From: Melioribacteraceae bacterium
GTDB taxonomy: Bacteria > Bacteroidota > Ignavibacteria > Ignavibacteriales > Melioribacteraceae
Direction of reading: 5' to 3'
NCBI GenBank assembly: GCA_027013735.1
Contig: JALWGH010000184.1
Span: 1 to 34,076, forward strand
DNA length: 34,076 nt
Translations under genes and position numbers: made by a program
Shown: positions 17,705 to 29,994 of the stretch, piece after piece
How positions within the stretch are numbered: position 1 is the first letter of the stretch
Layout: every line of letters begins with the position of its first letter
Notes under the pieces: generated by a model
Seen by the model: only the letters and a program-made list of their open reading frames with translations
Databases searched by the model: none
Told to the model about the DNA's origin: nothing

Positions 17705-17900
17705 TAAAATCCATCAATCCACTCCTCCAACTATCCAAGGTTTTCTATTTGGTAAACACTTTTCTCTGTTCACTGATATCTGTTCTCTGAAAAGATGCGT
17801 CTTGCTTGTCACGGCGAAGCCCGAACTAAGTGAGGGCGAAGGCGGACGTCTTGCCTCTCGCGTCTTGCGTAGAATCCATTTCTTATTTCTTGTTTCTTCT
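17705..17900. repeat. Mosaic periodic repeat, locus 2
   Basis: atccatca|atccactc|ctccaact|atccaagg (8-nt); tgttcac|tgatatc|tgttctc|tga (7-nt); cttgcttgtcacggcgaagcccga...gagggcgaaggcgga; ending ttcttctttcttat. Confidence 0.8.
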
Positions 17901-18015
17901 TTCTTATGTTGCCATCTATTTTAATCCCGTACCAATTTCCGGAAGCTTTTATTATGCAGGGTTGTTTAATTTGTTTAATTTTGTTCTTGTTCGTAAAACA
18001 GAATTGGAGAAAACG

Positions 18016-21445: not shown

Positions 21446-21757
21446 ATGAACGTATGGTTTGCAGCATTACTGGTAATTTTATTTAACATTCCGTTTGGTT
21501 ATTGGCGGGCAAATGTGAGAAAGTTTTCCTTGCAATGGGCTCTTGCGGTGCACATTCCCGTGCCTTTTGTAATTGCCCTGCGTTTGCTCGGTCACATCGG
21601 ATTCCAATTTTACACTTACCCTATTTTGATAACGGCGTTTTTCTTAGGTCACCTTTTCGGTAAAATGATTTACGTGAGAATTAAAGCTCTCAAGCCTGCA
21701 AAAGTTTCCTCCTGCCTTGTAATGGATTTGGTGAGAATGAGAGGGGAAGAAAGTTAA
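21446..21757 (+). CDS. Small membrane hypothetical protein
   Basis: Several hydrophobic segments (WFAALLVILFNIPFGYW, VPFVIALRLLGHIGFQFYTYPILITAFFLGHLFG); ATG 21446, alternative TTG 21422. Confidence 0.6.
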   Translation: MNVWFAALLVILFNIPFGYWRANVRKFSLQWALAVHIPVPFVIALRLLGHIGFQFYTYPILITAFFLGHLFGKMIYVRIKALKPAKVSSCLVMDLVRMRGEES

Positions 21758-21759
21758 AG

Positions 21760-21854
21760 CCATCCAACAATGCATTTCTCCAATTATCCAAGAGTCTCGT
21801 TTGGGAGAGTGCGCGAGTGCTCTTGGATGATTGGATTTTTGGACAATTGGATGG
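21760..21854. repeat. Long imperfect hairpin (about 35-nt arms) made of octamer repeats
   Basis: Left arm ccatccaacaatgcatttctccaattatccaagag versus right arm ctcttggatgattggatttttggacaattggatgg; about 26/35 positions complementary. Confidence 0.7.
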
Positions 21855-21871
21855 AATGGTCTCGAGTATTT

Positions 21872-22105
21872 AACTTTCCACTTTCCATTTTCAACTTTCA
21901 ATTAAATAAGTCTTAAGTTACGAGTAACGAGTCTTAAGTCTCTGGTCACTGTTATCTGTTCTCTGAGCAGGACGTCTTACGTCTAGCGTCTCGCGTCTTG
22001 CTTGTCACGGCGTAGCCCGAGCATAGCGAGGGCGAAGACGGACCTGTCGCGCCGAAGTCAAGCAAAGCGCAGACGAAGGCGGATTTCTTCTTTCTTATTT
22101 GAATG
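21872..22105. repeat. Mosaic periodic repeat, locus 3
   Basis: ctttcca|ctttcca|ttttcaa|ctttcaa; gttacga|gtaacga|gtcttaa|gtctctg|gtcactg; tgttatc|tgttctc|tga; gtcttac|gtctagc|gtctcgc|gtcttgc; cttgtcacggcgtagcccga...; ending ttcttctttcttat. Confidence 0.85.
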
Positions 22106-22206: not shown

Positions 22207-22704
22207 ATGGCAACAAATCTTGAATTGAAAATCGAGTTGAAAGACTTCAGACGGGTTCTCGGCAGACTGAAAAAGATAGATGCCGAATACAAGGGAATAT
22301 TAAAACAGAAAGACATTTACTTTACGGTAAAAGGCGGGCTGTTAAAACTCAGAAGACAAAACGGCGAGTACGAACTGATTTATTACAACCGCGACGAAGA
22401 AGGCAAAAAGCGTTGGAGCAATTTCGAAGTTATTCTACTTAACGGAAAGAACATTGAAAAAACATTTGTAAAAATTTTGAATGTGGAAGCCGTAGTTGAA
22501 AAAACAAGAAAACTGTTTATTTACAAGGGCACAAGGGTTCATCTCGATACTGTAAAAGGACTCGGAAAATTCCTTGAGCTTGAAACCCCTGTGACCAAAG
22601 GCAAGCGTGAGGCGGAAGTTAGATTTAAAGAAATAATCAAGCTGCTCGACTTGGACACAGCGAAACAAATAAAAACTTCTTACAGATTTTTGATTGCAAA
22701 ATGA
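22207..22704 (+). CDS. CYTH domain / class IV adenylate cyclase-like protein
   Basis: N-terminal NLELKIEL, QKDIYFTVKGGLLKLRRQ, VEKTRKLFIYKGTRVHLDTVKGLGKFLELE. Confidence 0.87.
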   Translation: MATNLELKIELKDFRRVLGRLKKIDAEYKGILKQKDIYFTVKGGLLKLRRQNGEYELIYYNRDEEGKKRWSNFEVILLNGKNIEKTFVKILNVEAVVEKTRKLFIYKGTRVHLDTVKGLGKFLELETPVTKGKREAEVRFKEIIKLLDLDTAKQIKTSYRFLIAK

Positions 22705-25700
22705 TTCTTACAAAATCCGAAATAAAGAAAATTGACATTGAAAGATTCGTCGATGACTTTGCCACTGCCGGCGCAATTGAAAAATTTTTATTAATCGTTC
22801 CCACTAACCGCAGGGTACGCAAATTAAAAAAGCGACTAATTGACCTCACGCCGTCGAAAGGGGCAACGGTAATAAACATCGAAACGCTTGAAACTTTCAC
22901 GAGAAAGATTCTCGGCGAGAATGAAATTTTCCGCAGGCTCTCGGAATCCGCAGCCTCGGTATTTCTTGAACAAGCCGCCGAAGAAACGGAGCTGGAATAT
23001 TTTTCTTCTTACAAAGGCGAAATTCCTTTCGGAACAATTGAAGAACTGCGCGAAGTAATTTCCGAATTTAAGCGTTTCGGGTATTTTCCCGAAGACATTT
23101 TAAATTTACCCGAGGATGTTTCCCCTGCGGAAAAAAGAAAAGCACGGGACATTGCTTTCATTTACTCAAAATATTTGCAATCAACTACGGGCGTAAGTGC
23201 TTACGAAGTGGGAGACGTTTACCAAAGAGTAATTGCGCTCGGAAAAGAAAAGTTCAGGGAAATTTTTGCGAGCATTTACCCTGATGTTGAAAACGTAATT
23301 GTTACGGGCTTCGACGAGTTTTCTCCGCCCGAGATTGAGATTTTGAACATCCTTTCCGATTTGGAAAATGTAAAAACCTTCATTGATTTTGATTACGATT
23401 CTTCTAACGGTTTTTTATTTTCTCATCTTAACGACTGCTACGAAGCCTTGAAAAATAAGGGCTTCCGCGCTATCGAGGATGTTTCCCCCGCGGGGAACGA
23501 CAAATTTACGAGCTTCGTCCGTTCCTTCCTTTTCAAAAATGTTGAAAAGCAAAACGAACGTTACAAAGACAATTTGTTTTTAATCCCCGCCGAAAACAGG
23601 GAAGAGGAAATTAAATTAATAGCCAAAGCAATTAAGGAAAATTTAACGGAAGGCACAGCCAAACCGAACGAAATTTGCGTGGCGTTTAATTCCATTACTT
23701 CTTATTCGCAGATTGTTAGAGACGTTTTCAAATCTTACGGAATTCCTTTTAATCTTACGGACAGAATCACGCCGGACAAAACAGCGCCTGCCACGGCAGT
23801 AATTAATCTCCTTGAAATAATTGAAACCAATTACTACTACAAAAATATTCTGCGGGCTTTCAGCAGCGGATTCGTTTACCTGCCAGGCGTTAACATCGGC
23901 GCAATTCAGGCTGCGGCAAGAAGTCTGAAATTAACCGTGGGGCTTTCCAACTGGAAGACGCAATTAAACCAAAACATTTTTGGGAACGAAAACTCAACGG
24001 AAGCAAGTATTTTTAAAGAAGCACTGAAAAGTATTAAGTCAATTGAAAAATTGTTGTCCCCTTTTTCCAAAGAGTTGACAATCGGTGAATTTCTTACCGA
24101 GCTAAAAAAATTAATCAAGGAAGTGAAATTAGATTCCCTGTTGTTCAAGGGGGACGACGCACAGCAGGAAATAAACATCAAAAGTCTTTCAGGCTTAATC
24201 GAAGCTGCGGAAGAAGTTTTTACGTTAATCGAAATCAAGGAAGGCAAAGGAGAGAAATTTACGCTCGAATTTTTCCTCGACAGGCTAAGAACGATTGCAC
24301 GCTCGGCGAGGTTTAACGTTAAGGAGCGCCCCGAATACGGCGTGCTTGTAACTTCGGTAAAAGAAATTCGCGGCTTGAGTTTTAAAGTGCTGTTTGTCGG
24401 CGGAATGGTGGACAAGGATTTTCCCGTCAGATACCGTCCGGAAATTTTCAAACCGAAAACGTTTGCAAAAAACGAGGAGCGCCACCTGACCGAACAACGC
24501 TACCTTTTTTACCAAGCGCTAAAGGCTCGCAGGAACAAGCTCTACTTAACTTACCCGAAACGCGAACTTAAAAAGGAGCTTTCGCCTTCATCTTTCCTGG
24601 ATGATTTTAAGAAACTGTTTGCAGTTACCGAACTTACTCCAAAGGATTTTGAAAACGCTTACTACTCCAGGGAAGAATTACTGAAAGATTTTAACCTGCT
24701 TGTCAAAAATAATCTGACGGAAAATATTTTAACCCTTGAGGAAAAATTCAAAATAGACACAGGTAAAATTAAGACGCTGTTGGACATCGATTTTTCCAAA
24801 TTGCACAGGGCGGAAAACTCCGCCGAATATTTCGGGACTTTGCTGCGTGAAAATATTGAAGATGGAGAAAACTCAAAACTCAAGCACTACCTTGCTTCTT
24901 GGAGACACAGAGTATTTTCAGTAACTCAGCTTGAGACTTACGCAAAATGCCCGTTCAGATTTTTCCTTGAAAGAATCTTAAAAGTAGAAATTCTCGAAGA
25001 ACCGAAGGAAGAAGTTGAAAGAACGGAATTCGGGAAAATACTCCACAAAATTCTTTTCCGTTTTTACGTAGAGTCAAGCAAGAAGAATCTCCGTTTGAGT
25101 AATTGCTCGGACGAAATCTTTAACAGGGCAAAAAATTTACTTTTCCAAATAGCGCGGGACGAAATAAATGCTTCGAAGATTTTTGAGTCGGGGCTCTCGT
25201 TTCACGATAAGGAAAAAATCCTCGGCATAAACGGCAGAGAAGAGGATTCGATTCTCTACAAATTTTTGGAAACGGAAAGAAGCGACACGGACGGATTTGT
25301 CCCGATTTATTTCGAAGCTTCTTTCGGGGCGGAAAAGTTTAGCGAGGAATTAACGTTAATAAGCAAAGACCCGGTTAAGTTGGGCAATGTTTTGCTGAGG
25401 GGCAAAATTGACAGAATCGAAATCAACGAAAGCGAAAAACTTTTTAATGTGGTGGATTACAAAACCGGCGGTAACGCAAGCGGACTCGGTAAAGAAATCA
25501 GAGAGGGACTTTCCTTACAATTGCCCGTTTACCTTTACGCCGCCAATCAATTCCTCGGCGAAGATTACACGGGAAAGGAAATGATTATTTATTCCCTGAA
25601 ATACAAAAAAGACGACTTCGGTAAAAATAAAATAAACGAAAACTCTGCGCGTAAAAAAGCTTCTCGTGATGAATTGGTTGAAGTTAATAAAAGCCTTTTT

Positions 25701-25862
25701 GATTTTGTTGAAGAGAAAGTCAACGAATATGTTGAAAAAATTTCTCAAGGCAAGTTTCCGCTTTCGGCAGTAGAAAACAGGGAAGAAAAAGTTTGTAAGT
25801 ATTGTCCTTTCAAATCAATCTGCCGCGTGGCGGAAGAAAAATTAATTGTCAAACAACCGTAG
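22701..25862 (+). CDS. addB: AddB-like PD-(D/E)XK nuclease/inactivated helicase subunit
   Basis: C-terminal nuclease VVDYKTGG; Fe-S type cysteines (TYAKCPFRFFLE ... CKYCPFKSIC, C-x2-C-x5-C); UvrD-like body; ATG overlaps the CYTH gene stop. Confidence 0.82.
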   Translation: MILTKSEIKKIDIERFVDDFATAGAIEKFLLIVPTNRRVRKLKKRLIDLTPSKGATVINIETLETFTRKILGENEIFRRLSESAASVFLEQAAEETELEYFSSYKGEIPFGTIEELREVISEFKRFGYFPEDILNLPEDVSPAEKRKARDIAFIYSKYLQSTTGVSAYEVGDVYQRVIALGKEKFREIFASIYPDVENVIVTGFDEFSPPEIEILNILSDLENVKTFIDFDYDSSNGFLFSHLNDCYEALKNKGFRAIEDVSPAGNDKFTSFVRSFLFKNVEKQNERYKDNLFLIPAENREEEIKLIAKAIKENLTEGTAKPNEICVAFNSITSYSQIVRDVFKSYGIPFNLTDRITPDKTAPATAVINLLEIIETNYYYKNILRAFSSGFVYLPGVNIGAIQAAARSLKLTVGLSNWKTQLNQNIFGNENSTEASIFKEALKSIKSIEKLLSPFSKELTIGEFLTELKKLIKEVKLDSLLFKGDDAQQEINIKSLSGLIEAAEEVFTLIEIKEGKGEKFTLEFFLDRLRTIARSARFNVKERPEYGVLVTSVKEIRGLSFKVLFVGGMVDKDFPVRYRPEIFKPKTFAKNEERHLTEQRYLFYQALKARRNKLYLTYPKRELKKELSPSSFLDDFKKLFAVTELTPKDFENAYYSREELLKDFNLLVKNNLTENILTLEEKFKIDTGKIKTLLDIDFSKLHRAENSAEYFGTLLRENIEDGENSKLKHYLASWRHRVFSVTQLETYAKCPFRFFLERILKVEILEEPKEEVERTEFGKILHKILFRFYVESSKKNLRLSNCSDEIFNRAKNLLFQIARDEINASKIFESGLSFHDKEKILGINGREEDSILYKFLETERSDTDGFVPIYFEASFGAEKFSEELTLISKDPVKLGNVLLRGKIDRIEINESEKLFNVVDYKTGGNASGLGKEIREGLSLQLPVYLYAANQFLGEDYTGKEMIIYSLKYKKDDFGKNKINENSARKKASRDELVEVNKSLFDFVEEKVNEYVEKISQGKFPLSAVENREEKVCKYCPFKSICRVAEEKLIVKQP

Positions 25863-25925
25863 GAAGAGTTCGTAGGGATGACTTGTAGGGACAACCTGTA
25901 GGGACAACTCATGAGTTGTCCCTAC
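25859..25925. repeat. 13-nt tandem repeat plus 28-bp perfect palindrome
   Basis: gtaggaagagttc|gtagggatgactt|gtagggacaacct|gtagggacaactc then the palindrome GTAGGGACAACTCATGAGTTGTCCCTAC (25898-25925). Confidence 0.85.
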
Positions 25926-25953
25926 AACAATATATTGGCGTTCACCAAAAATG

Positions 25954-25979
25954 TAGGGACAGCTCGCGAGCTGTCCCTA
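25954..25979. repeat. 26-bp perfect palindrome TAGGGACAGCTCGCGAGCTGTCCCTA
   Basis: Second diverged copy of the palindrome at 25898-25925. Confidence 0.85.
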
Positions 25980-26005
25980 TGAATGATGGGAAAAATATTT
26001 AAGAA

Positions 26006-27070
26006 TTAAAATCCGAAAAAGATTGAAGCCGTTGCGGTATTGATTGCGCCGATTTTGTAATCCGCTGCAATGTTAAAGAAGAAAATATTTAATCTCGCTC
26101 CAAGCGTTAAAGCCAATTTGTTTTTGCCTTCCAAATCAAACGAGATGTGTTGCGTGGTGGGACCGACGGGTGTGTCGAACACATAATCGTAGTTCACGGT
26201 AGTTGTGGAAGTTTCGTACGTAACGCCTGCGTAAGGAGTAACGGACAGACCGATTCCAAACTGCTGGCTTACGTAAAGCCCGAACTGCGTGGCTTTGCTT
26301 TCGAAAATGTCCCCGACTTTCAGCTTCTGCGTAAAATACCCGACGGAAAAATCTACCGGCAGCAGCGGAATGGGAATCCAAGAGTTAATGTTGTGTAAAA
26401 TGCCGAAACCGAAGAAAGAGAATTTCCCGAGGTCTTTAATATCCACACTCGGCAGCCAGCGGAATGCCGCCTGCGTTCCGTAAATGGTACCTACGTTCAA
26501 TTGAATTCCGGGCGTTGGAAAGATTGAAAGATTGTCTAATAATCCGGTTACTTCGTTTACGTCAACTGTAGCCGAGCCAACGGTTACGCCGTTAATTGTT
26601 TCGCCGGGGAACTCTATTTGAAGATGCTCGTCTTTGCTTCCGATGACGGTGGGTCCGGAAAGCTTAACAGTGTAAGCTTGGCTCAGCATCTTGTTTTTCA
26701 AAGCGTCGTAGCCGGGCATCCCGGAAAAAATCCCGCTGTTGTTTAGAATTTTTTCCACCTGTGGAGAAGTAAACCTGAACGGAGCGGAAACGCTGAAATT
26801 TTTTGCCTCTCCCGCAAGGAACGAGCCGGCAGCGAAAACTTTAACGTTAAGCGTAAAGCCCAACAGCGTGTTGCCAGGCGAGCCAGAGAACCAACCCGAA
26901 TTCAAGTTGGAACCGAAAGCGGGAATAATTGGCTGAACGTAAGCTTCGGCAGCCTGATTGCTGAGGTTTTGCAAGGTTTCGTCAAGTGATTGCGCATTCA
27001 CGGATGTTGTGCTTAATAGAATCGTGAACGCAAACAAAACGCTTGCTATTTTAAGTGTTAATTGTTTCAT
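26006..27070 (-). CDS. DUF6588-like outer-membrane beta-barrel protein
   Basis: Signal peptide; SLDETLQNLSNQAAEAYVQPIIPAFGSNLNSGWFSGSP; alternating beta strands with aromatic C-terminus (ATASIFFGF). Confidence 0.75.
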   Translation of the reverse strand: MKQLTLKIASVLFAFTILLSTTSVNAQSLDETLQNLSNQAAEAYVQPIIPAFGSNLNSGWFSGSPGNTLLGFTLNVKVFAAGSFLAGEAKNFSVSAPFRFTSPQVEKILNNSGIFSGMPGYDALKNKMLSQAYTVKLSGPTVIGSKDEHLQIEFPGETINGVTVGSATVDVNEVTGLLDNLSIFPTPGIQLNVGTIYGTQAAFRWLPSVDIKDLGKFSFFGFGILHNINSWIPIPLLPVDFSVGYFTQKLKVGDIFESKATQFGLYVSQQFGIGLSVTPYAGVTYETSTTTVNYDYVFDTPVGPTTQHISFDLEGKNKLALTLGARLNIFFFNIAADYKIGAINTATASIFFGF

Positions 27071-27111
27071 CGTACCTCCTTATTATTTTGGTGTTATTTT
27101 CTTTTGGAATA

Positions 27112-28824
27112 TTAATTGCTCCGGAGTAATTCTTTCGCTGAGCTGAGTGCCGAGTCGGTAACCGTTTCGCCACTTAAGAGACTTGCAATTTCTTCCAATT
27201 TCTCTTGCTCGGAGAGCTCCCTGATTCCGCTTACCGCGCGTCCTTCGAAAGAATATTTTTCGACTTTGAAATGCCTGTCCGCCAGAGCGGCTATTTGCGG
27301 TAAATGTGTAATGGCTATTATCTGGTGAAACCTCGAAAGGTTTTTAAGTTCGGCGCCGACCTTGCGTGCAATTCTTCCGCTTACGCCGGTGTCGATTTCG
27401 TCGAAAATCAAAAGCGGAAGTTTGTCGTTCTTTGCCAAGGAAGATTTCATTGCAAGCATTATTCTTGAAATTTCCCCGCCCGAGGCGACTTTAACCAAAG
27501 GCTTGGGGTCTTCTCCCTGATTTGTGGAAATGAAAAACTCAACTTTGTCGATTCCGTTTTTGAAAAGGCGGATTGCGCGTGAGCCGGTTTTAACGCTGAG
27601 GTCTTCAATTCCTGCGGATTCAACCTGCTCTACTTTGGTTTCGAAAACCGCGTGGCTAATTCCAAGGTCTTGCAGTGAGCTTTCGATGTTTTGTTTTAGT
27701 TTTTCAGCCGTTTTCTTTCTTTCCTCACTGAGCTTTGTGCCGATGGCTAAAAGTTTGTTCTTTAATTTTTCTATTTCACCGGAGAGCTTTTCTTTCTTGT
27801 CGGAAAAGTTAACCGCCGTCTCGTATTCTTTTGAAATTTTTTCTTTGTAATTGAGCACGGCAGAGATTGTCCCGCCGTATTTTTTCTTCAAAAGATTAAG
27901 ACTGCCGAGCCTCTCCCGCATTTCTTCAAGCCGTTCCGGGTCAACTTCTATTTTGCTTTTGTAACTTGCAAGTGTTCTTGCAATGTCGTCGAGCACGGAA
28001 AGAGCACCTTCGGCTTCGGAGATTTTATCGGAAAACTCTTTGTCAAACTCCGCAAGGGTTTCGAGCTTCCCGATTACGCTTCCGAGCCTTTCGGTCAAAG
28101 AATTTTCCGATTCGTAGAGTTCCAAATAAACTTCCTCAGACAAGTTTAAAATCTGCTCGGCGTTTTCGAGAATTTTCAATTCGCTTTCAATTGTTTCGTC
28201 TTCGTCCGGTTCAGGGGAAACTTCTTCAATCTCCTTCAATTGAAATTCGTAGAGCTCCTTTTTCTCTTTTAACAACGCTTCTTTTTCCGTCAGGTCCTTT
28301 AGCTCTTTGTTTAATGAATTAAGCAGTTTGTAATTTTCTTCGTACTCGAGGAGCAAATCACCGTAGTCCCCAAACTCGTCGAGCATCTCGATGTGGGTTT
28401 GTGTTCTCAAAACCGATTGGTGCTCATGCTGCCCGTGAATGTCCACAAGCAAATTCCCGACTTCCTTAATAAAATTAAGCGTTGCGGGCGTGTCGTTGAC
28501 AAAGTTTCTATTTGTCCCCTTTAAAGAAATTTCCCTGCGTAAAATTAACTCATCGGAATAATCGTAATCGTTTTCCTCAAGCAATCGGCGGATTTTCTCA
28601 TTACCACTTACGTCAAAGACGGCTTCCAATATTGATTTGTTAGTCCCCCGGCGGATTACTTCCGCTGTGGCGCGGTCGCCCAAAATCATTCCCATTGCGC
28701 CAATTAGAATAGACTTTCCCGCTCCGGTTTCGCCGGTAATAATGTTTAGACCTTCGCCGAAGTTCACTTCGACGTCTTCAATCAGCGCGTAATTTTTAAT
28801 TCTTAAAGAGGTTAACATTTCCAA
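27112..28824 (-). CDS. recN: DNA repair protein RecN
   Basis: SMC-like ATPase: MLTSLRIKNYALIEDVEVNFGEGLNIITGETGAGKSILIGAMGMILGDRA and VASGGEISRIMLAMKS...LLIFDEIDTGVSGR. Confidence 0.96.
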   Translation of the reverse strand: MEMLTSLRIKNYALIEDVEVNFGEGLNIITGETGAGKSILIGAMGMILGDRATAEVIRRGTNKSILEAVFDVSGNEKIRRLLEENDYDYSDELILRREISLKGTNRNFVNDTPATLNFIKEVGNLLVDIHGQHEHQSVLRTQTHIEMLDEFGDYGDLLLEYEENYKLLNSLNKELKDLTEKEALLKEKKELYEFQLKEIEEVSPEPDEDETIESELKILENAEQILNLSEEVYLELYESENSLTERLGSVIGKLETLAEFDKEFSDKISEAEGALSVLDDIARTLASYKSKIEVDPERLEEMRERLGSLNLLKKKYGGTISAVLNYKEKISKEYETAVNFSDKKEKLSGEIEKLKNKLLAIGTKLSEERKKTAEKLKQNIESSLQDLGISHAVFETKVEQVESAGIEDLSVKTGSRAIRLFKNGIDKVEFFISTNQGEDPKPLVKVASGGEISRIMLAMKSSLAKNDKLPLLIFDEIDTGVSGRIARKVGAELKNLSRFHQIIAITHLPQIAALADRHFKVEKYSFEGRAVSGIRELSEQEKLEEIASLLSGETVTDSALSSAKELLRSN

Positions 28825-28879
28825 ATAGAAAAATTAAAGTTGTGTTAAAATACGGATTTACGGTTTTATTTACCACACC

Positions 28880-29205
28880 CGGATTTGAATCCGATTGGTA
28901 ATTGTGCGTTCTCTGCGGAAAATCTTTGCGCCCTCTGCGTGGAAAAAGATTTAGACTAAACTGTTTTTTTGTCATTTGCTCCGCCTTTGGCAGTGTAAAG
29001 CTTGCCTCCGGCGTGGCGTCAGGCGCAGATTGCACGCAATCAACGCTACGGAAATTTAGCAACAATTTTTACTCGAAAGAACTAAGGAAACTTTCCACTT
29101 TCCATTTTCAACTTTCAATTAAATAAGTCTTAAGTAACGAGTCTCAAGTAACAAGTGCTGTTAACTGTTCTCTGTTTTCTGAATAGGGTGTCTTACTTCT
29201 GGCGA
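28880..29205. repeat. Mosaic periodic repeat, locus 4
   Basis: cggatttgaatccg hairpin; tgcgttctctgcgg...tttgcgccctctgcgtgg; 47-nt block identical to 21872-21918 at 29089-29135; tgttaac|tgttctc|tgttttc|tga; gtcttacttctggcg. Confidence 0.8.
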
Positions 29206-29843
29206 TTCTCCACGGAATTACAAATAGAATCGTCCGTGTCGCGATGGTAAACGTAGGTGCGTTCTTCGCATTTCAACACCTTAAAAAGTTTAATTGCTCT
29301 TTCGAAAAATTCGGAGTCTTCGCTGTACGGAATATTCCTAAATCCGTTAAGCTCAACAAACACCTCTCGTTTGCCGAAAAACGTTCCGCCCACAATGCAG
29401 TTGTCAATGTGAATCTTTTTGCCCAAGTCCCGTTTGTCGGGAACGTAAGGGTCGCCGATTATTTTTACTCCGCCGTAAATTAAATCCACGTTTGTATTTT
29501 CCTGAATTAATTTAACGTGTAATTCAAGATGTTCGGGTAAGTACTCGTCGTCGCTGCCGAGGAAAGTAATGTATTTGCCCTTGCTCTTTTCAATGCCGGC
29601 GTTCAAGCTTGGCGAAATTCCACGATGCTCGAATTTGTAGTAACTGATGCGTTTCTCCGTTTTAATCAAACTTTTAACAAAGTCGCCAGTGCCATCCGTG
29701 CTGCCGTCGTCAATTATTACCAGTTCCCAATTGTCAATTGTTTGAACAACAACGGAATTTATTGCCCGCGGGAGTAAAGCGCGCCTATTGTACACGGGCA
29801 TTATTATTGAAACCAATATATCTTTGTTTTTGTAGAAGCTCAT
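29193..29843 (-). CDS. Glycosyltransferase family 2
   Basis: VSIIMPVYNRRALLPRAINSVVVQTIDNWELVIIDDGSTDGT, FLGSDDEYLPEHL; preferred ATG at 29843 (MSFYKNKD). Confidence 0.9.
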   Translation of the reverse strand: MSFYKNKDILVSIIMPVYNRRALLPRAINSVVVQTIDNWELVIIDDGSTDGTGDFVKSLIKTEKRISYYKFEHRGISPSLNAGIEKSKGKYITFLGSDDEYLPEHLELHVKLIQENTNVDLIYGGVKIIGDPYVPDKRDLGKKIHIDNCIVGGTFFGKREVFVELNGFRNIPYSEDSEFFERAIKLFKVLKCEERTYVYHRDTDDSICNSVENRQK

Positions 29844-29994
29844 ATTTTTGTTTGTTCTTTTCCGCAAAAATACTTTGAAAGGATTTGCGACGCTAATCAA
29901 ACTGCCAATATTTACCTTGAATAATTATCCGTCGCAGGTGCGATTTTTTTAATATATTTTAATTCTGAATTATTTTTGAAAGGAAACATTTGTA

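Follow-up and report, generated by a model that had tools for sequence, protein, structure and literature searches.

Dispersed GTAG-type palindromes and heptamer cassettes in a Melioribacteraceae genome: placement at gene ends and within type IX secretion sorting domains

1. Introduction

Repetitive extragenic palindromic (REP) sequences of the GTAG type are short palindromes beginning with GTAG that occur in dozens of copies per genome, mostly at extragenic or otherwise harmless positions, are enriched in the gaps between convergent genes, and flank the gene for a REP-associated tyrosine transposase (RAYT) (PMC2817692, PMC3733652). They are located mainly downstream of open reading frames (ORFs), in convergent or co-directional gaps, where their termini often provide TAG stop codons (PMC3733652), and both GTAG REPs that supply such stops and some REPs within ORFs have already been reported (PMC2817692, PMC3733652). 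A survey from 2013 recorded GTAG REPs in Proteobacteria, Cyanobacteria, Chloroflexi and the Planctomycetes-Verrucomicrobia-Chlamydiae (PVC) group; the lineage considered here is not listed in it (PMC3733652). Here we describe repeats in a window of 34,076 nucleotides (nt), the whole stretch of DNA that was analysed, from a Melioribacteraceae bacterium. Its draft metagenome-assembled genome measures 3.12 Mb, with 3.5% contamination, and the window corresponds to contig 184. Two kinds of repeats are prominent in it, a GTAG-type palindrome and tracts of heptamers, and both touch the stop codons of neighboring genes.

Two further systems invite comparison. The Rickettsia palindromic elements (RPEs) are palindromes that sit in-frame within genes and are apparently translated (PMC3733652), while the TAACTGA arrays of Beggiatoaceae (PMC4679880) and the long simple sequence repeats (LSSRs) are intergenic tandem heptamers with many arrays per genome.

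The repeats of the window likely represent two dispersed families, namely GTAG REPs that were moved by a RAYT and have been kept where they are harmless, and a composite heptamer cassette. A RAYT-like single-strand transposase would move the GTAG palindromes, whose copies would persist at places of low harm: intergenic gaps (chiefly convergent ones), the gene of the RAYT, and a single loop in the type IX secretion system (T9SS) sorting domain. In this probable β2-β3 loop, a palindrome in frame 0 would add the residues VGTAHELSL while the strand that follows is preserved.

2. GTAG-Type Palindromes and the RAYT-Like Transposase Gene

The 28-nt palindrome, with the consensus GTAGGGACARCTCRYGAGYTGTCCCTAC, is present in 49 copies in this genome and in 21 copies in the sister species G001 (reversed-pattern control: 0), a size and copy number that agree with the 20-40 nt and many dispersed copies of GTAG REPs. 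It is absent from the 18 other relatives searched, namely one more species of the genus plus 17 others, and the identical 28-mer is also found in scattered distant genomes, including those of Kangiella, Neomarinimicrobiota and Aequorivita. When up to three mismatches were allowed in reading the copies of this genome, 54 places were obtained: 28 in T9SS C-terminal sorting domains, three and four, respectively, inside a RAYT-like ORF of contig 76 and next to it, and 23 in intergenic DNA. Every intragenic copy of this genome belongs to a T9SS tail or to the RAYT-like ORF. The genome NAT134 (Ignavibacteriae) also has the palindrome in-frame in a repeated protein segment of another kind (GFEVQRTSVGTTHELSLQWEKIGF; L225, L237), which would be a second translated site.

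Three palindromes lie just past the HFHGI motif of the RAYT-like ORF (L123:2596-3532), and the four additional copies flank it, as do palindromes of the sequence GTAGGGGACGC. NAT134 likewise possesses a RAYT-like ORF with flanking and internal palindromes (L234), and in G001 (C219) palindromes are found upstream of and inside such an ORF, with the contig ending within the gene; a cognate RAYT is hence bordered by its palindrome in three genomes, in G001 on the upstream side only. All three ORFs match the REP_Tyr_transpos model (NF047646), at 1e-17 in NAT134, 7e-8 in this genome and 4e-6 in G001, values that are all below the curated cut-off. The family was probably mobilized by a single-strand transposase of the RAYT-like kind, the gene of which these palindromes flank.

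Distances between repeats and stop codons were determined in a sample of approximately 820 kb of the genome, with genes predicted by our own codon-usage caller, which misses short genes. The intergenic palindromes lie a median of 35 nt from a stop, versus 38 nt for random placement within their own gaps (P 0.44; for clusters, P 0.53). Their clusters favor convergent gaps, which hold six out of 16 while accounting for 10% of the intergenic length (P 0.004); four of the 16 occupy divergent gaps.

Two of the intergenic copies (25898-25980) separate the convergent genes for an AddB-like protein and a DUF6588 protein, and one may ask if they chiefly act there as a bidirectional terminator or as a stabilizer of mRNA. 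Such roles have been proposed for REPs (PMC3733652), the gap is convergent, both copies form strong hairpins (Table 1), and one terminator-like site is found on the minus strand. However, copy 1 is not followed by a T-run; a GC-rich hairpin with a T-run behind it is seen for copy 2 alone, on the minus strand; moreover, the region contains four terminator-like sites versus 5.3 in shuffled sequences, and over half of all palindrome copies are intragenic. We therefore consider a terminator or stabilizer as the chief role of these palindromes to be somewhat unlikely.

At the 3' end of addB, ahead of these two palindromes, lie four 13-nt half-palindrome units arranged head-to-tail. This is the only tandem array of the half unit in the examined DNA of this genome and the sister species, and it may provide a view on how the half unit expands or decays.

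3. In-Frame Palindromes in T9SS Sorting Domains

The T9SS sorting domain is a 3 + 4 β-sandwich, in which the loop connecting β3 and β4 is conserved, essential, and contains a functionally important glycine; the connector between β2 and β3 varies in length, one of the solved domains having a far longer one than the others (PMC11285876). Pfam counts 120 such domains in this genome, and 93 tails were recovered for analysis. In 28 of these 93, the GTAG-type palindrome is present at one and the same codon site, and in all 28 it is in frame 0. It follows the strand TTTIKYSIP, precedes the segment xVYDxLG, and encodes VGTAHELSL or close variants of it. The ORFs with a palindrome are otherwise intact and run on to the canonical end of the tail, the palindrome being apparently read through as in the RPEs. 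Prior to their translation, the in-gene copies had been taken for a repeated transposon gene, a view that was given up once the translations revealed T9SS tails.

The same site also holds other repeats. In 13 further tails, it is occupied by a different palindrome or dispersed repeat (GTAGAGACAAGGCATGCCTTGTCTCTAC in six, GTAGGGGACGC..GCGTCCCCTAC in three, GTAGGGATCCCGC.. in one, and GTCATTGCGAG.. in three). A pattern search for GTAG palindromes at this site in 294 genomes of the class, in which the reversed-pattern control gave 0, detected palindromes of other sequence in four more genomes (GTAGAGACGGGGCATGCCCCGTCTCTAC, GTAGGGGCACGATGCATCGTGCCCGTAC, GTAGAGACGTCATATATGACGTCTCTAC and GTAGGGACAGGACAATCTGCTATCGGCGGATTGTCCCTAC), and a SURF_28 tail (L229) contains the palindrome of the window itself. 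As a separate observation, many tails (L055, L066, L068 and others) possess a second insert, approximately CCCGCCGGTGGCGGGACAAGT (SAGGGTS), between NPF and TTT, in the loop before TTTIKYS; it was found at 24 distinct places in the DNA examined, 14 of which are in or near T9SS tails.

When the YDxLG motif is matched to the β3-β4 region, the insert site most likely corresponds to the β2-β3 loop. A search against solved structures gave one weak match, to the T9SS sorting domain 8glj (E 0.0008); the query alignment included one chimeric row, and no conclusion was drawn from it. The last codons of the palindrome, TCC CTA, encode Ser-Leu and thereby resemble the normal strand VSLKVYD, so the palindrome can probably replace loop residues at little cost.

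Do these palindromes reflect one insertion or many? One possibility is a single insertion, after which the palindrome spread only as tails were duplicated or underwent gene conversion; the intergenic copies would then be a separate matter. Insert-bearing tails are indeed a more similar subfamily, with an amino acid identity of 68% versus 45% among insert-free tails, which makes it likely that part of the spread took place through duplication of the domain; recent duplicate pairs exist (the L068 pair and the L061 pair), and the insert state is clustered on the tail tree beyond what is seen in shuffled data. The codons that adjoin the palindrome tell otherwise: in the 28 tails, the palindrome codons are near-identical, whereas for most codons next to it the sharing of synonymous codons does not exceed background (0.28-0.53), with no decay around the palindrome, and no conversion tract is therefore visible. 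Furthermore, five unrelated inserts occupy the one site in this genome, and other palindromes are present there in other genera. On a tree built from the downstream part of the tails, the insert-bearing tails do not form one clade; the palindrome under study (PAL1) needs 18 changes, and supported branches force at least four for it and at least three for PAL2. Hence, spread from a single insertion by duplication or conversion alone is unlikely, and the best reading of the sequences is that of several to many insertions accompanied by some tail duplication; it looks like repeated in-frame insertion of REPs into one tolerant loop.

In addition to the subfamily structure just described, several points weigh against insertion by a RAYT-like transposase, repeated at this loop. 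The tail tree has 55 columns and is poorly resolved. A clean empty site was not found when it was sought in the relatives of two insert-bearing genes, one of which has no ortholog and the other only distant paralogs; the net gain is five to seven residues, while the palindrome measures 28 nt. The RAYT-like ORF of this genome carries an in-frame stop, and its activity is therefore only putative. In most palindrome copies, GTAG is paired with CTAC within the stem, in contrast to the unpaired tag of the published GTAG REPs. Finally, a PF01797 search of the genome returned two genes for Y1 transposases, neither of which is flanked by the GTAGGGACARCTCRYGAGYTGTCCCTAC palindrome. These two were rejected as the RAYT of the palindrome because it does not stand beside them, and one of them has a different REP, CCCACGGCTTTAGCCGTGGG; the search missed the relevant RAYT probably because palindromes interrupt its gene.

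Compared with the published GTAG REPs, in which intragenic copies are found in varied genes and usually at differing sites, more than half of the copies here share a single codon site within one family of domains. The RPEs are inserted into unrelated proteins, whereas the intragenic inserts of this genome, from several palindrome families, are centered on one loop of one secretion domain. We found no relevant report on palindromes in T9SS tails or on in-frame REPs in surface proteins in the literature accessible to us, which covers a minority of the subscription journals. The presence of one palindrome in-frame at an invariant position in the secretion tags of 28 exported proteins is unusual, and it seems not to have been described before.

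The case is evenly balanced for a broader proposal, according to which RAYT-mobilized GTAG palindromes of differing sequence repeatedly enter the one T9SS loop (β2-β3) in-frame in the Ignavibacteria, so that a selfish repeat would have its reservoir in the gene family of the sorting tags, and mobile DNA would have supplied part of the tag of many exported proteins. The insert might also modulate how the secretion tag is recognized or processed. Approximately 40 inserts, derived from at least five repeats and all found at a single codon position of the same domain, constitute a natural experiment, which can be used for studying the site preference of REP transposases, the way in which non-coding palindromes become protein, and the tolerance of the T9SS tag to change.

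4. Heptamer Cassettes

Cyanobacteria are known for short tandemly repeated repetitive (STRR) sequences, which are intergenic tandem heptamers with many arrays per genome. Tandem intergenic units of 7 nt are also the rule here: 32 tracts of period 7 and 15 of period 14 are intergenic, as against one and none in coding DNA, and a Markov control gave none at either period. The independent single-unit arrays that characterize LSSRs and STRRs are not what is found; in contrast to them, the units in this genome are degenerate, and five words occur in fixed order in a dispersed cassette. These words are A (ACTTTCC), B (AAGTCTT/AGTNACG), C (CTGTTCA), D (GTCTTGC) and E (TTTCTTA). Neighboring blocks follow each other as A>B in 15 cases, B>C in 18, C>D in 16 and D>E in 14, never in reversed order, and with a single neighbor on the opposite strand.

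A search with a 123-nt query from a cassette of the window, in which 40 out of 254 first-look candidates were scored, gave at least 41 matches in this genome, with 78-100% identity over about 80-135 nt; shorter matches are present in the sister species. A heptamer tract is a block with a set place in one composite cassette that is dispersed over the genome, not an independent array. Independent slippage microsatellites without any dispersed element could account for the dominance of period 7, which has been reported of repeats in prokaryotes (PMC4679880), and for copy numbers that differ among loci, but five words in fixed order on one strand and the many matches to one query render this explanation very improbable. 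The cassette is a warning against treating heptamer tracts as independent microsatellites. Octamer words like those of the hairpin at 21760 often precede the heptamer cassettes (Table 1). Between the D and E blocks of the window (22014-22083) lies a dispersed stretch, TTGTCACGGCGTAGCCCGAGCATAGCGAGGGCGAAGACGG.., which recurs between D and E of other cassettes.

Table 1. Repeats and adjoining genes of the window, with the evidence for each
Feature	Position	Strand	Evidence or remark
GTAG-type palindrome copy 1, GTAGGGACAACTCATGAGTTGTCCCTAC	25898..25925		RNA fold -21.3 kcal/mol, z -6.3
GTAG-type palindrome copy 2, GTAGGGACAGCTCGCGAGCTGTCCCTAT	25953..25980		z -6.9; terminator-like, minus strand
Four head-to-tail 13-nt half-palindrome units, GTAGGAAGAGTTC, GTAGGGATGACTT, GTAGGGACAACCT, GTAGGGACAACTC	25859..25910	+	Direct reading; Tandem Repeats Finder period 13 at 25872-25908
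Composite cassette, blocks A-B-C-D	21868..22013	+	At least 41 genome matches
E block (TTTCTTC TTTCTTA) of the 21868 cassette	22084..22097	+	Block-order reading
Composite cassette, blocks A-B-C and one D-like unit	29090..29204	+	84% identical to 21868-21990; block order
Inverted octamer tract, long hairpin, upstream member of the 21868 cassette	21760..21854		Minimum free energy -45.1 kcal/mol, z -6.0
C-block heptamers, (CTGTTCA)n, adjoining the stop codon of dnaA	11687..11718	+	None beside dnaA in the sister species
E-block heptamer tract	17878..17907	+	Tandem-repeat detection
addB-like nuclease/helicase gene	22701..25862	+	PDDEXK_1 2.6e-38, ADDB_N 8.7e-10; stop TAG 25860-25862
Glycosyltransferase family 2 (GT2) gene	29193..29900	-	Glycos_transf_2 2.1e-34; stop TAA 29195-29193
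dnaA	11720..13132	-	Bac_DnaA 1.5e-69

An Rfam scan of the window gave no match. In the sample of approximately 820 kb, a stop codon is within 40 nt of 12 out of 45 heptamer tracts, versus 4.2 expected from uniform placement in the same gaps (P < 0.001) and 6.2 when the 100 nt upstream of starts are barred (P 0.006), an excess of about two to three times random. Yet 27 of the 45 are more than 100 nt away from any stop. Only one tract is located within 40 nt of a start, where 5.2 would be expected. The heptamers are thus nearer to stops than to starts, whereas the TAACTGA arrays are positioned just upstream of starts (PMC4679880). The bias toward the 3' ends of genes is real but modest, and it is partly start avoidance; avoidance of promoters and ribosome-binding sites alone would produce a 3' bias as well.

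5. Repeats at the Ends of Genes

A preliminary description of this DNA had placed repeats at the ends of addB, the GT2 gene, dnaA and a small ORF, and all its coordinates are correct on direct reading. The TAG of addB is inside the first 13-nt unit, which is degenerate (GTAGGAAGAGTTC shares nine of 13 positions with GTAGGGACAACTC, chance approximately 0.001). The end of the GT2 gene, CGC CAG AAG TAA, falls inside gtcttacttctggcg, so that the D end of a cassette encodes the last three residues (RQK) and the stop. A heptamer tract of CTGTTCA units adjoins the stop of dnaA, and the hairpin at 21760 begins two bases past the stop at 21757 of the small ORF, which has no Pfam match and was not called by the codon-usage caller.

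From these contacts, the preliminary description had proposed that repeats are aimed at the ends of genes, or that their insertion creates new stops; in the former case, an element would insert upon recognition of 3' ends or terminators. The excess of heptamers near stops, the GT2 tail ENRQK ending in a repeat, and the AddB stop in a GTAG unit are in keeping with this. Comparison of C-termini with those of orthologs, which had been suggested as a check, leaves little of the second part. The DnaA ortholog of G001, which is 87% identical, ends with the same final residue and has no tract, so the DnaA stop was not made by the tract; it was this outcome that the preliminary description had named as contradicting its view. 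The conserved core of AddB ends in CR(I/V)xE, tails of variable length then follow in the orthologs, and the tail of the window protein falls inside the spread of tail lengths seen in 19 orthologous matches without a repeat. A stop taken from a GTAG unit was found in one of 527 genes, addB alone. Most GT2 orthologs, among eight matches compared in relatives, stop at approximately DSICNTI, and the window protein adds ENRQK, running into the repeat; some repeat-free orthologs also have extra residues. GT2 looks like the sole case that fits a repeat-supplied stop, in the form of a putative five-residue extension.

The proposed targeting of gene ends finds partial support. The repeat-to-stop distances that had been asked for are non-uniform for the heptamers and as in random placement for the palindromes, which show no excess at stops within their gaps but favor convergent ones; most heptamer tracts are far from stops, and the depletion at starts explains part of their shift. 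In our view, targeting of gene ends and the making of new stops by insertion are largely refuted and quite improbable as a general account. The best explanation for the contact of repeats with stops is tolerance on the 3' side of genes together with occasional overlap, through which such contacts would arise incidentally. The apparent decoration of gene ends by repeats in this lineage can be explained in this manner without a special end-targeting device.

Heptamers of differing words recur across the order, and in G014, which belongs to another family of the order, a clean (GTCCGAC)4 array is present 3' of the addB stop (L036).

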